Positions 29,267 through 33,643 of a stretch of DNA of 64,000 nucleotides are shown one piece after another; position 1 is the stretch's first letter, and the number at the start of each line of letters is the position of its first letter. Position numbers and translations under genes: made by a program. The stretch is from Terriglobales bacterium (lineage in GTDB: Bacteria; Acidobacteriota; Terriglobia; Terriglobales; Acidobacteriaceae). Below the pieces are notes generated by a model that saw only the letters and a list, made by a program, of their open reading frames with translations, did not search any database and was not told the DNA's origin. Location of the stretch: contig JAICWP010000001.1 in assembly GCA_025934735.1 (NCBI GenBank), forward strand, positions 310,001-374,000, written 5' to 3'.

Positions 29267-30409
29267 TCAGTCTTTAAGGATTTGCCGCGCGATTACCATG
29301 CGCTGAATTTCGCTGGTGCCTTCCCCGATGGTGCATAGCTTCACGTCGCGGTAGAACTTTTCCGCGGGATAGTCCTTGATGAACCCATAGCCGCCGTGAA
29401 TCTGCACTCCCTCATTGGCGCATTTGACCGCCACCTCGCTGGCATAGAGCTTGGCCATGGACGACTCCAGCGTGGTCTTCATGCCTGCATCCTTCATAGA
29501 GGCGGAGCGCATGGTGAGCAGGCGGGCGGCATCAATTTCAGTGGCCATATCGGCCAGCTTCCACTGGATTGCCTGGAAATCGCTGATGGCGCGGCCAAAC
29601 TGCTTGCGCTGCTTGGAATAATTCAGCGCCGCTTCGTAGGCGCCCTGGGCCATGCCCAGGGAGAGCGCGGCGATGGAGATGCGCCCGCCATCGAGTACAC
29701 GCATAGCGTCAATAAAGCCGTTGCCCTCGGCGCCGACCAGGTTTTCCTCGGGGATCAGGCAGTCTTCGAAGATCAGTTCGGCGGTGTCACTGGCGCGCAG
29801 GCCCAGCTTGTTTTCCTTTTTGCCCGGGCGAAATCCCTTGGTCCCTTTTTCCACGATGAAGGCGGAAAGACCATGAGTATGGGCGGCGCGATCGGTGACC
29901 GCGATCACCACCAGCACATCGGCGTAGTGGCCGTTGGTGCAAAAAGTTTTGGTGCCGTTCAGGATCCAGCCATGCTTGTTGCGCACGGCGCTCATGCGGG
30001 CGCTGCCTGCGTCAGAACCGGAGCCGGGCTCAGTCAGTCCCCAGGCGCCGATGAACTCACCCGACGCCAAGCGCGGCAGATATTTGTGCTTCTGCTGCTC
30101 GTTGCCGGCGAGAAAAATGTGGTTCGCGCATAGCGAGGTGTGCGCGGCCACGATGATGCCAACCGACCCGTCCACCCGCGAAAGTTCTTCGATGGCGGTG
30201 ACGTATTCCACATAGCCCATGCCGGCGCCGCCCAGTTCGGGCGGGAAGACCACGCCCATCAGGCCAAGCTTGCCCAGTTCCTTGATGGTGGCCAGCGGAA
30301 ACTCGCCCGCCTCATCCCACTTCATAACGTTGGGCAGGATTTCACGCTCGGCGAATTCGCGCACGCTACGCCGGAGTTGCTGCTGTTCCTCGCTTAGCTG
30401 AAAGTCCAA
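29267..30409 (-). CDS. Acyl-CoA dehydrogenase
   Basis: A 380-residue flavoenzyme with the full family layout. An N-terminal helical domain ([20 protein letters not shown]), the middle beta-domain with [15 protein letters not shown] and [11 protein letters not shown], and the C-terminal domain with [20 protein letters not shown] are followed by [15 protein letters not shown], whose Glu is in the position of the catalytic base. It probably oxidises short- or branched-chain acyl-CoA; the exact substrate is not readable. The TTG start at 30409 is preceded by GGGAGG 7 nt upstream. An ATG at 30442 would add 11 residues. Confidence 0.92.
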
Positions 30410-30628
30410 AACCGTTACCTCCCTGGAGAGGAGACATAACAAGTTACGTCTTCACCACGGCAAAAACATTTTATTAGAACACACGGCGGAAGTCAGGGGG
30501 AAGGAGCGCGAGACTGAGCGAGCGATTTTAAGCCGGTGCGTGGAAACTGGAGCTGGCAATGGAGGCAAGACTTGATCCCAGACGCGATAATTCAAGCCTT
30601 AAGCAGTCGCCGCACACCCACCGAAATA

Positions 30629-30856
30629 TCACCTTGCGCCAATCGCGCTGAGAATTTCCTGGGTTGTCGGCATGTGGCCGGCCTGCTTTCTGGAAAACAC
30701 CAGCTTGCCGTCGGCAAATATGTCCAGCACGCCGCCGCCTCCCATCCGGAGCTTTACTTTGTCCACTCCGGGCTGTTGTTCCAGTTCGCGCTTCAGGCTC
30801 CCGGCCTGATGGCGAATGTCGGCTCAAAGAAAGCAGCGCTTGATTTCAATTTTCAT
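30629..30856 (-). CDS. Candidate selenoprotein, Rdx family (SelW/SelT/SelH-like), UGA read as Sec at codon 11
   Basis: Reading from the ATG at 30856, the frame gives MKIEIKRCFL, then an in-frame TGA (30824-30826), then ADIRHQAGSLKRELEQQ and on to a second TGA at 30629. With the first TGA as selenocysteine the product has 75 residues. It matches the Rdx thioredoxin-like fold throughout: beta-strand, C8-F-L-U11 (the CxxU/CxxC redox motif of the family), a helix, then GGGGVLDIFADGKLVFSRKQAG, the family's conserved GxxxVxxxGxLxxSxKxxG end. A SECIS-like hairpin follows the TGA. A cysteine-to-stop mutation is the alternative reading. The sel genes are not in this window. It lies alone between the acyl-CoA dehydrogenase and threonine aldolase genes. 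Confidence 0.75.
30793..30809 (-). promoter_or_regulatory. SECIS-like stem-loop downstream of the in-frame UGA
   Basis: In the minus-strand transcript, 14 nt after the UGA, UCAGGC pairs perfectly with GCCUGA around a CGGGA loop. Known bacterial SECIS elements are short hairpins inside the coding region whose apical loop lies about 16-37 nt after UGA and has a G among its first two bases. Here the loop begins 20 nt after UGA, with G second. Loss of this hairpin in homologues with Cys would support the role. Confidence 0.65.
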
Positions 30857-30895
30857 GGTTACCCTATCCATACCAATTTAGATGCCACGCACACA

Positions 30896-31015
30896 AAAGT
30901 AGTCAGGAGCCAGCAGTCAGGAGTCAGCTGAAAGCCAAGCGCACGGGGCGGACATTAATGGCCCAATTGCTTGTTCACTCTATACCTCTGCGTCCTCCGC
31001 GTCCTCTGCGGTTTT
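30896..31015. repeat. GTCAGGAGCCAGCAGTCAGG and CTCTGCGTCCTCCGCGTCCT repeats
   Basis: Two repeat types follow one another between the Rdx gene and the threonine aldolase gene. The first, AGTCAGGAGCCAGCAGTCAG (about 30899-30926), resembles 53833-53850. The second, CTCTGCGTCCTCCGCG repeating into CCTCTGCGGTTTT (30985-31014), is of the AACCGCAGAGGACGC type also at 12998-13156 and 53881-53969. Confidence 0.6.
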
Positions 31016-31053
31016 AATTGTGGGATATTCAAGCGGGTGCTATACAGCTTCGG

Positions 31054-32136
31054 TCAATCGGCGGCGCCGACGCGACGGCCATGCCCGCACATGGCTTGCA
31101 CAGCTTCCAGAGCGCGGGTGCAGCCGGCGCGGTCCACATCCATGTGGGTGACCATGCGGATATGCTCGGAATCAATGCCGCTGGCCAGCACGCCGTGTTC
31201 GGCCAGCTTCTTGCAGATGTCGAACGAGGTCATGCCTGTCCCGGCAACATTGAATACCAGAATGTTGGTGATGACCTTGCTCGCATCCAGGCGGAGGCCG
31301 GGAATTTGTGCCAGGCCCGCAGCCACAAATTTGGCGTTGGCGTGGTCCTCGGCCAGGCGTGCCGGCATTTTTTCCAGCGCGATCAGCCCGGCGGCGGCCA
31401 GCACGCCGGCTTGGCGCATGCCTCCGCCCAGCGACTTGCGGTAAACCCGCGCCTGGTCTATGAAGGCGCGGCTTCCCACCAGCAGAGATCCCACCGGCGC
31501 GCCCAGTCCCTTAGAAAGGCAGAACATCACCGAATCGGCTTTCCCGCTGATTTGGGCAACTGGCTTGCCCAGCGCAGTGGCGGCATTAAAGATCCGTGCG
31601 CCATCGAGATGGACCGGCAAACCCGCCTGATGCGCCCGCTCACAGATGTCGTTGAAAACCTCCGCCGGGTAAACCGTCCCGCCGGCCATGTTGTGGGTGT
31701 TCTCCAGCGAGATCAGCCCGGTCTGGGCGCGGTAATAAATTTTCGGCGCAATCGCCCGCTCAACGCGGTCCCAGGTGAGAATGCCGTCGAGCGCGGGCAC
31801 CGGGCGAGCCAGGCAGCCGGAAAAATGCGCCAGCATGGCCATTTCATAATTGAAAATGTGGGCGCGTTCCTCGCAGATAATTTCCTGTCCGGGCCTGGTG
31901 TGGACCTTGATCGCGATCTGGTTGCCCATGGTGCCGCTGGGTACGAAGAGGGCGGCTTCGCGGCCAAAGATTTTCGCCGCCCGATGTTCCAACCGATTGA
32001 CGGTGGGGTCTTCGCCGTAAACGTCGTCGCCCACCTCGGCTTCGGCCATGGCGCGTCGCATCTCCGGGGTGGGCCGGGTGACGGTGTCGCTGCGCAAGTC
32101 AACGATCGAGGGTCGAGGCTCGCTTTGGGAGGGCAT
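31054..32136 (-). CDS. ltaE: Low-specificity L-threonine aldolase
   Basis: A 360-residue PLP enzyme: [60 protein letters not shown] and the Schiff-base Lys in [15 protein letters not shown]. It cleaves L-threonine/allo-threonine to glycine and acetaldehyde. The ATG at 32136 gives the normal N-terminus. A longer frame from 32385 passes through intergenic repeats and is rejected. Confidence 0.93.
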
Positions 32137-32362
32137 AGGCAGTTGGCAATCAGCATCAGCCAGTAGGGCACTTATGCTGCCGCTGCAAGAAAAGTCTAAT
32201 GAAAGATGCGGGCGAGGGTCAAAGTCAACAAGAATGTCTGCGGGGTGGGGCCCTCCTACGTCCTGGGGCCGCGGCAGGCTAAATGCCTGGGGCCGGAAGG
32301 CCCTCAGTATGACGCCGAAGGTTCCAACTCCTCTGCTGTGTAGCGGACAAGGGCCTGCGTTC
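32137..32362. other. Intergenic region between hemW and ltaE
   Basis: No gene is seen. It holds an imperfect hairpin (CTGGGGCC, GGAA loop, GGCCCTCAG, 32287-32307) inside a GCAGGCTAAATGCCTGGGG stretch that looks like a mobile intergenic element, and a short GGCAATCAGCATCAGCCAG run near the ltaE start. Confidence 0.4.
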
Positions 32363-33643
32363 CTACATCCGCGCGGCCGTGTCACACGCCAGGAAGCGCT
32401 GGAATACTTCGTTGGACAGGAGTCGTCCGTTGTCGGTCAAACGAATGTTGCTGCCGGCCCGCTCCAGCAAGCCGTCAGCACACAGGTGGGCGACCGTATC
32501 CTCCAGTTCGGCAGGCAAGCCAAAGCGCAACGCGATGGTGCGCAGGTCCACTCCGCGATTGAGGCGTAGTCCCAAAAAGAACGCTTCTTCGCGCGCTTCC
32601 GCCCAGGAGACCGGCATCTTTTTCAGCGCAGCGCCCGCGAGAAATTCTTCCAGCGAATCCGAGGTGGAGAAGCGCACCGCCTCCACATTGGCCTGAGATA
32701 CGTCACAGGGACGATTGCCGCCGTTATCGCCAGGCGTATCTCCGGGCCGCGAGCGCATCGGGTGAGCTCGCAACAATGTGTAGGCGTCGGCAGACGCTTC
32801 CAGCATAGAGTGGGCATCCACTCCGAAGCCGAGATACGGCTGCCGTGTCCAATATTTCAGGTTGTGCCGCGAAACCGCGCCAGGGCGGGCGAAGTTGGAA
32901 ATCTCGTACTGGGCGATGCCTGCCACGTTCAACCGCCGGCAAGCTTCCACGTAGAAGTCGGCAATGGCATCCTCATTGGGCACAAAGTGGGCGTGATAGC
33001 GGATGCCACCGGCCATCAACTCCCGTCCCAGGCGTGAATCCTCATCCACCTCCAGCATGTACACGCTGGCGTGGGGCACACCACTGGCAATAACCTCGTC
33101 GAGAGAAATTGTCCAGCTCGCCGGAGTTTGATGGGGCAGGCCGGCGATCAGATCCAGGTTGATGTTGTGAATGCCGGCGGCGCGCAAGTGGGCGATGTCT
33201 TCAAGCACAGTAGCCCTCTTATGCTGGCGGCCCACGGCAGCGGCTTCGCCATCCACCATGGATTGCACTCCCAGGCTCACCCGGTTCACGCCGCAGCGGG
33301 CCAGGGTCCCCAGCATTCGTTCATCCAGGCTTCCGGGTGCGCACTCCACGGAGATTTCGGCGTCAGGCGCGATGGAAAACTGCTGGCGAATGGCGGCAAA
33401 AAGCCGCTGCAAGTCTTCGCCGGGCAGGATCGTGGGCGTGCCGCCGCCCAGGTAGATGGAGTCAATCGCAGGCTCGAAATGCCCTCCCATCACGGCCGCC
33501 GTGCCGGGCGCCTGCCTCATCTCCTCGCATACCCGGTCTACGTAGCGTGCAAATACCTTTTGGGAAAACACCCCCGAGGCAAAGTTGCAGTAGCTGCACT
33601 TAGTGCGGCAGAAGGGAACGGAAATGTACAATCCCAGCGGCAT
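32363..33643 (-). CDS. hemW: Radical SAM heme chaperone HemW
   Basis: A 426-residue protein beginning [19 protein letters not shown], the CxxxCxYC radical-SAM cluster in the form found in HemW and Hem[10 protein letters not shown] (SAM-binding GGGTP) and the later [22 protein letters not shown] and [10 protein letters not shown] motifs follow. HemW lacks the N-terminal extension of HemN coproporphyrinogen dehydrogenase, and this protein starts directly at the cluster, so HemW (heme transfer) is preferred. A 25-residue Gly/Asp/Asn-rich insertion lies near residue 300. It diverges from the fabF-like gene. Confidence 0.9.

Follow-up and report, generated by a model that had tools for sequence, protein, structure and literature searches.

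The window, by which we mean the whole stretch of 64,000 nucleotides that was analysed, carries on its minus strand a short gene whose reading frame appears to end after ten codons. Its neighbours are a PLP enzyme and an acyl-CoA dehydrogenase, both encoded on the same strand and separated from it by 197 and 186 bases respectively. The features of the locus are:

31054..32385, minus strand: upstream neighbour, PLP enzyme of the beta-eliminating lyase family (Pfam PF01212), often nearby in relatives
30861..30869, minus strand: purine-rich GGATAGGGT, 4 bases 5' of the ATG, picked out by eye; candidate for a possible weak ribosome-binding site
30629..30856, minus strand: predicted Rdx/SelW-like selenoprotein gene, 75 aa, TGA stop codon included (translation, Pfam Rdx, relatives)
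30824..30835, minus strand: CxxU motif, codons 8-11 (C-F-L-U), from the translation; C8 and codon 11 invariant in the 14-row A1 alignment
30824..30826, minus strand: predicted selenocysteine codon 11, an in-frame TGA (TGA in 14/14 A1 rows and in 55/58 fetched loci)
30785..30816, minus strand: extended stem around the core hairpin, from the minimum-energy fold of the window sequence
30794..30808, minus strand: predicted bacterial SECIS core hairpin, 5 pairs, loop CGGGA (fold and synonymous-codon control)
29267..30442, minus strand: downstream neighbour, acyl-CoA dehydrogenase (Pfam), often nearby in relatives

The frame begins with an ATG at 30856 and nine further codons, meets a TGA at codon 11, and continues through 64 sense codons, with zero stops in between, to a terminal TGA at 30629-30631. 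An earlier note on this DNA had described an ATG, ten codons, a TGA, 64 codons and a second TGA, and translation bears the frame out; its ten codons are right if the ATG is counted among them and wrong if they are meant to follow it. With selenocysteine at codon 11, the product would read MKIEIKRCFLUADIRHQAGSLKRELEQQPGVDKVKLRMGGGGVLDIFADGKLVFSRKQAGHMPTTQEILSAIGAR. Upstream of the gene, a CGCAGAGGACGCGGAG-like repeat is present twice, with overlap, at 30986-31010; the window holds five matches to this repeat with up to 2 mismatches, against 0.76 expected. A consensus scan of 30440-31060 returned one promoter-like site (0.4 in shuffles, sd 0.6) and three terminator-like sites (0.9, sd 1.1), which play no part in the selenoprotein argument.

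The family assignment follows from the read-through protein as a whole. Pfam Rdx (PF10262) covers residues 2-72 and scores 42.2 bits where 22.6 are required, which upholds the earlier claim of one continuous Rdx protein on both sides of the TGA; the portion 3' of the TGA passes the same model alone, at 38.6 bits. A search of the window's whole genome for Rdx matches returned this one gene. The TGA falls at the family's second Cys or Sec site, as had been proposed: the motif is C8-F-L-U11, and its C8 and codon 11 are invariant in 14/14 aligned rows. Because the TGA stands at codon 11 in all 14 of these first-aligned rows (the window's own included), its position there is more than chance. The two NCBIfam models of the family fit less closely. 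The window protein misses the cut-off of TIGR02174 (CXXU_selWTH) narrowly, at 34.0-34.1 bits versus 34.2, and is far from that of NF041051 (SelTWH_Campy), with 42.3 of 88 bits; all 14 A1 members match both models at E 0.01 or better.

A two-sequence AlphaFold2 model of the protein has a mean pLDDT of 76, with residues 1-7, the poor first strand, below 50. The first 23 PDB matches of this model in Foldseek are chains of the SelW/Rdx kind, with probabilities up to 1.00 and a best E of 0.048, none reaching 0.001; they include 2fa8 (TM about 0.67), 2oka, 2p0g, 2obk, 2ojl, 3dex, 2ljk and mouse SelW, 2npb. PDB titles name 2fa8, 2p0g, 2obk and 2npb as selenoprotein-W-related or selenium-binding, and 2oka, 2ojl, 3dex and 2ljk we take to be Rdx proteins as well. 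Sequence-profile matches to solved structures were best for 2ljk (5.2e-7), followed by 2fa8 (1e-4), and also included 2oka. By profile, Foldseek or both, the solved Rdx proteins that the window protein resembles are 2fa8, 2oka, 2p0g, 2obk and human C17orf37/MIEN1 (2ljk); in the profile alignment 2fa8 carries CxxC where the window protein carries CxxU.

The relatives show how the motif codon is kept. The Pfam Rdx model matched 19 of the 397 genomes of the order: 13 have TGA at codon 11, five have CxxC (L023-L027), and one copy has no recognisable start (L039). A further TGA form, L018, comes from a Rokubacteria MAG. The A1 profile was built from 14 TGA-form rows, namely the 13 from the order, the window's own among them, and L018, and the draw of relatives made with it favours TGA forms because of this. 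Applied to the order, it matched 46 places distributed over 45 of 397 genomes, and 38 of these places, from 37 genomes, have a TGA inside (counted by eye); the eight places without one are three in CxxC genomes (G010, G204 and G376), the loci L065, L061 and L068, and weak matches in G172 and G169. The phylum search yielded 126 places, spread over 113 of 396 genomes; 107 of them, from 95 genomes, contain a TGA. A TGA inside means one anywhere in the matched frame; its site was read at the 58 best-scoring places, whose loci were fetched. At 55 of these 58 loci the motif codon is TGA, and at none is it TAA or TAG, which answers the check for Cys or TGA at codon 11 that the earlier note had advised. 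The other three are L061 (TPLFP, Pro), L068 (CFWE, Glu) and L065, which lacks the gene start.

Several observations on these searches stand apart. L065 is the same place as L039 in genome G025 (L039:1-349); its match begins at profile position 16, its C-terminal three quarters are intact, its start and motif are missing, and no Rdx start occurs in any frame of the preceding 158 bases of the contig, so that the copy is decayed, misassembled or different. L069 and L070 represent a third Rdx-like type, its TGA lying in ISCPTU or RSCPTU and its tail reading GGNWFTRxFGAGYPDLD. In both the order and the phylum searches, further places match only about profile positions 1-52, with a TGA inside.

A decaying Rdx pseudogene that had acquired a stop codon would look much the same in a single genome, and decay does occur here, with L061 and L068 lacking the Sec residue and L065 its 5' part. 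Decay would, however, give stops that vary in codon and place, and the same TGA is present in 27/29 members of the window's branch. The earlier note had regarded relatives broken at other places as the sign of decay; 55 of the 58 are interrupted by TGA at the same codon and nowhere else before the final stop, as is the window's own frame. Moreover, dN is below dS 3' of the TGA in 9/9 pairs of relatives (six within the window's branch, three between classical-type proteins); the window and L041, which are 64% identical, give a dN of 0.33 and a dS of 3.07, the latter saturated. The codons 3' of the TGA are under purifying selection, and a pseudogene is accordingly a very improbable account of the locus.

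The RNA just after the TGA carries a second conserved signal. In the window, 15 bases separate the TGA from the stem and 20 bases separate it from the loop. The minimum-energy fold of the window sequence has z values of -1.71 and -2.30 against dinucleotide shuffles, and the outer part of its extended stem is absent from the 14-row consensus. Synonymous recodings with local codon usage keep the protein and put the RNA to the test. Against these, the window's single-sequence folding energy is mildly better only (p 0.076), and p 0.05 is reached by 6 of 26 window-type sequences and by 15 of 55 overall; mean energy z, as plain means, is -1.16 for the 26 window-type sequences, -1.17 for 29 others and -0.54 for a control stretch downstream (55). 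Since single-sequence folding was indecisive, we made a position-specific synonymous-codon test. Across the 26 window-type sequences, 107 of 130 stem cells are paired versus 72.7 (sd 5.0) in recodings, and all five pairs are formed in 16 sequences versus 1.9 expected, neither value being reached by any of 2000 recodings; ten sequences fall short of the full five. When the register was slid, the same test gave no excess of pairing at any of five positions, and a G lies within the first two loop positions in 26/26.

The hairpin register was drawn from 14 rows, 13 of which are among the 26 sequences tested, and the test was therefore repeated on the 13 others. In these held-out sequences 49 of 65 cells are paired versus 32.8 (sd 3.6), and all five pairs occur in 6/13 versus 0.67, again with 0/2000 recodings reaching either value. 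The hairpin is thus conserved beyond the needs of the protein, in held-out sequences too. The covariation term of RNAalifold is nil (0.03 over 14 rows), with changes on both sides in two of the five pairs. Classical relatives have a longer stem, in which 197 of 216 cells are paired versus 142.3 (sd 4.9), reached by 0/1000 recodings, in a register taken from their own folds. The locus has the bacterial-selenoprotein arrangement: soon after the UGA comes a stem-loop whose small apical loop contains the guanosine described in PMC1088965. An Rfam scan of 30000-31500 gave sub-threshold matches to tRNA-Sec (17.9 of 47 bits) and mir-760 (16.2 of 98), which we took as chance.

The host has the apparatus to use such a signal. 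Its genome assembly comprises 4.94 Mb in 50 contigs and is 99.83% complete, and selA, selB, selC and selD, the genes by which the earlier note wished to see selenocysteine use confirmed, are all present. The absence of selB and selC that the note would have read as a refutation is thus not what the genome shows. One tRNA-Sec match lies above the Rfam cut-off (70.6 bits versus 47; 14 weaker ones fall below it), ARAGORN also calls a tRNA-Sec with anticodon tca (UCA), and profile matches score 351.5 bits for selB, 554.4 for selA and 365.9 for selD. The genome's selD itself has one in-frame TGA (MPDVKTVRLTESVKAAGUASK; L020:1480-2541, contig C5), and the position of this TGA, in VKAAGUASK, is presumably the catalytic position of SelD. 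SelD is often a selenoprotein itself, accounting for 38 of the 285 counted in PMC1794560.

TGA forms and selA also tend to occur together. Of the 37 TGA genomes in the order, 35 match selA, none more weakly than 1.9e-116, and 173/397 genomes lie above the selA cut-off overall. Set against about 138 of 360 other genomes (by eye), this gives a Fisher p of 7e-12, a rough guide because the genomes are related and not independent. The two TGA genomes without a selA match, G144 (100% complete) and G322 (83%), encode full-length selB (380.2 and 376.8 bits), so that the missing selA is likely a gap in the draft. The CxxC genomes G010, G065, G104, G204 and G376 match selA only weakly, at E 5e-8 or worse. 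In the phylum, a strong selA match is found in 89/95 TGA genomes; no match is listed for G439, G746, G571, G512 and G520, and G470 has one of 1.6e-15 only. The selA draw covered 392 genomes versus 396, and some of these six exceptions may therefore lie outside the selA search.

These data bear on whether the TGA is read as Cys or Trp, through near-cognate suppression or a changed code, in place of Sec. The five Rdx proteins of the order that have Cys at this codon lend the idea some appeal. Against it stand the full Sec pathway in the genome, the co-occurrence of TGA forms with selA, the frame's own termination at a TGA, and the conserved hairpin directly 3' of the first TGA and we give such a reading very little credence.

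A ten-residue leader peptide followed by a separately started protein would need a downstream start, and the first in-frame GTG and ATG 3' of the TGA are at codons 31 and 38, in keeping with the earlier remark that no start shortly after the TGA would rescue a normal protein. A protein begun at either would be a fragment, lacking the motif together with the strand before it and the helix after it. Codons 1-10 encode strand one of the family, where I5, R7 and C8 are unchanged in 14/14 rows, and A18 and L21 are likewise invariant in that alignment; this reading is the least probable alternative and can practically be set aside.

Overall, the sequence evidence makes it highly probable that the locus is a functional Rdx (SELENOW-like) selenoprotein gene with a CxxU motif, and what looks like a gene with an early stop very probably encodes an intact small redox protein with selenocysteine. 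The general pathway would run as follows. SelD would make selenophosphate, which SelA would use to load tRNA-Sec (anticodon UCA) with selenocysteine. SelB would bind the hairpin just 3' of the UGA and deliver the Sec-tRNA, and we propose that the ribosome therefore reads the first UGA as Sec; at the second UGA it would stop, presumably because such a hairpin would be lacking there. The predicted 75-aa product would adopt a thioredoxin-like fold in which the C-x-x-U pair ends the first strand, and is most likely a small thiol/selenol oxidoreductase or thiol-binding adaptor. From the frame, the homology, the machinery genes, the conserved TGA, the selection and the hairpin, we infer Sec insertion at codon 11 and, with it, a redox activity and a partner.

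Within the family, the window protein belongs to a branch of its own. A tree of 61 rows (the 58 fetched loci minus L065, L069 and L070, plus L018 and five CxxC proteins) places the window and 28 others on one side of a branch with support of 100/100, apart from YCxxUNY and CxxC proteins, with the caveats that the bootstrap is unsettled and that L068 sits on a long branch; the small number of columns leaves many inner forks open. The window protein therefore falls, in this tree, outside the YCxxUNY branch, the commoner type of the phylum. The other TGA members of the phylum mostly read I-x-Y-C-x-x-U-N-Y, whereas the window's branch reads I-E-I-K-R-C-F-x-U, without those tyrosines, and has a shorter hairpin than the YCxxUNY-type members. 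The motif codon in the branch is TGA in 27/29, Cys in 0/29, Pro in one (L061) and Glu in one (L068). L061 and L068 keep the frame and both neighbours despite the loss of Sec, L061 also lacks the partner Cys, and their genomes, G089 and G236, retain selA and selB.

The two neighbours are often close to the gene in relatives. Relatives of both lie within 1.5-kb flanks in 16 of the 31 loci L041-L071 (the window's included), and one of the two does so in three more (L049, L053 and L059). Adjacency is not universal: in L043 and L051, over 1 kb separates the gene from the start of the dehydrogenase. The upstream PLP enzyme we take to be of the threonine-aldolase type. Eleven genomes without an Rdx match were asked for the dehydrogenase, and ten have it; the PLP enzyme lies in the 1.5-kb flank in two, and the A1 profile gave nothing better than E 0.24 at the ten dehydrogenase loci. 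All 2104 of 2104 plasmid records matching the acyl-CoA dehydrogenase are below 60% identity, and a search of the plasmid collection with the window protein gave zero matches at E 0.01. Conserved closeness is evidence of neither co-transcription nor a common pathway, and we did not assign a function from the neighbours. As a tentative and rather doubtful idea, KRCFxU might be a distinct, Sec-obligate Rdx subfamily with a selenium-specific job, perhaps tied to the PLP lyase and acyl-CoA dehydrogenase neighbours. If that were true, loss of Sec would lead to Pro or Glu and never to Cys, as if the activity were given up and not downgraded.

SELENOW-like CxxU proteins of PF10262 are a high-confidence predicted family of prokaryotic selenoproteins in PMC13188914, and SelW-like proteins are the most abundant selenoprotein family in marine surveys, according to PMC2398784 and PMC1088965. 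The window gene shares with them the Pfam family, the CxxU motif and a bacterial-type hairpin after the TGA. Judging from these sequence features, it belongs to the SELENOW-like proteins already known, within a branch that has its own support. PMC1794560 reports very few or no Cys homologues of SelW-like proteins in Sec users, and the window's branch, without a Cys form, matches that statement. In the titles and abstract openings returned by literature searches we found no description of the KRCFxU branch, which some table or supplement may nevertheless mention.

The locus adds to the cases where a standard gene caller would omit or shorten a real protein because its catalytic codon is TGA. 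Its branch is also borderline for the NCBIfam model, whose cut-off the window protein misses by 0.1-0.2 bits, and may deserve a model of its own. With Sec in 27/29 members and Cys in 0/29, the KRCFxU branch is therefore a natural test of why some selenoproteins escape replacement by cysteine.
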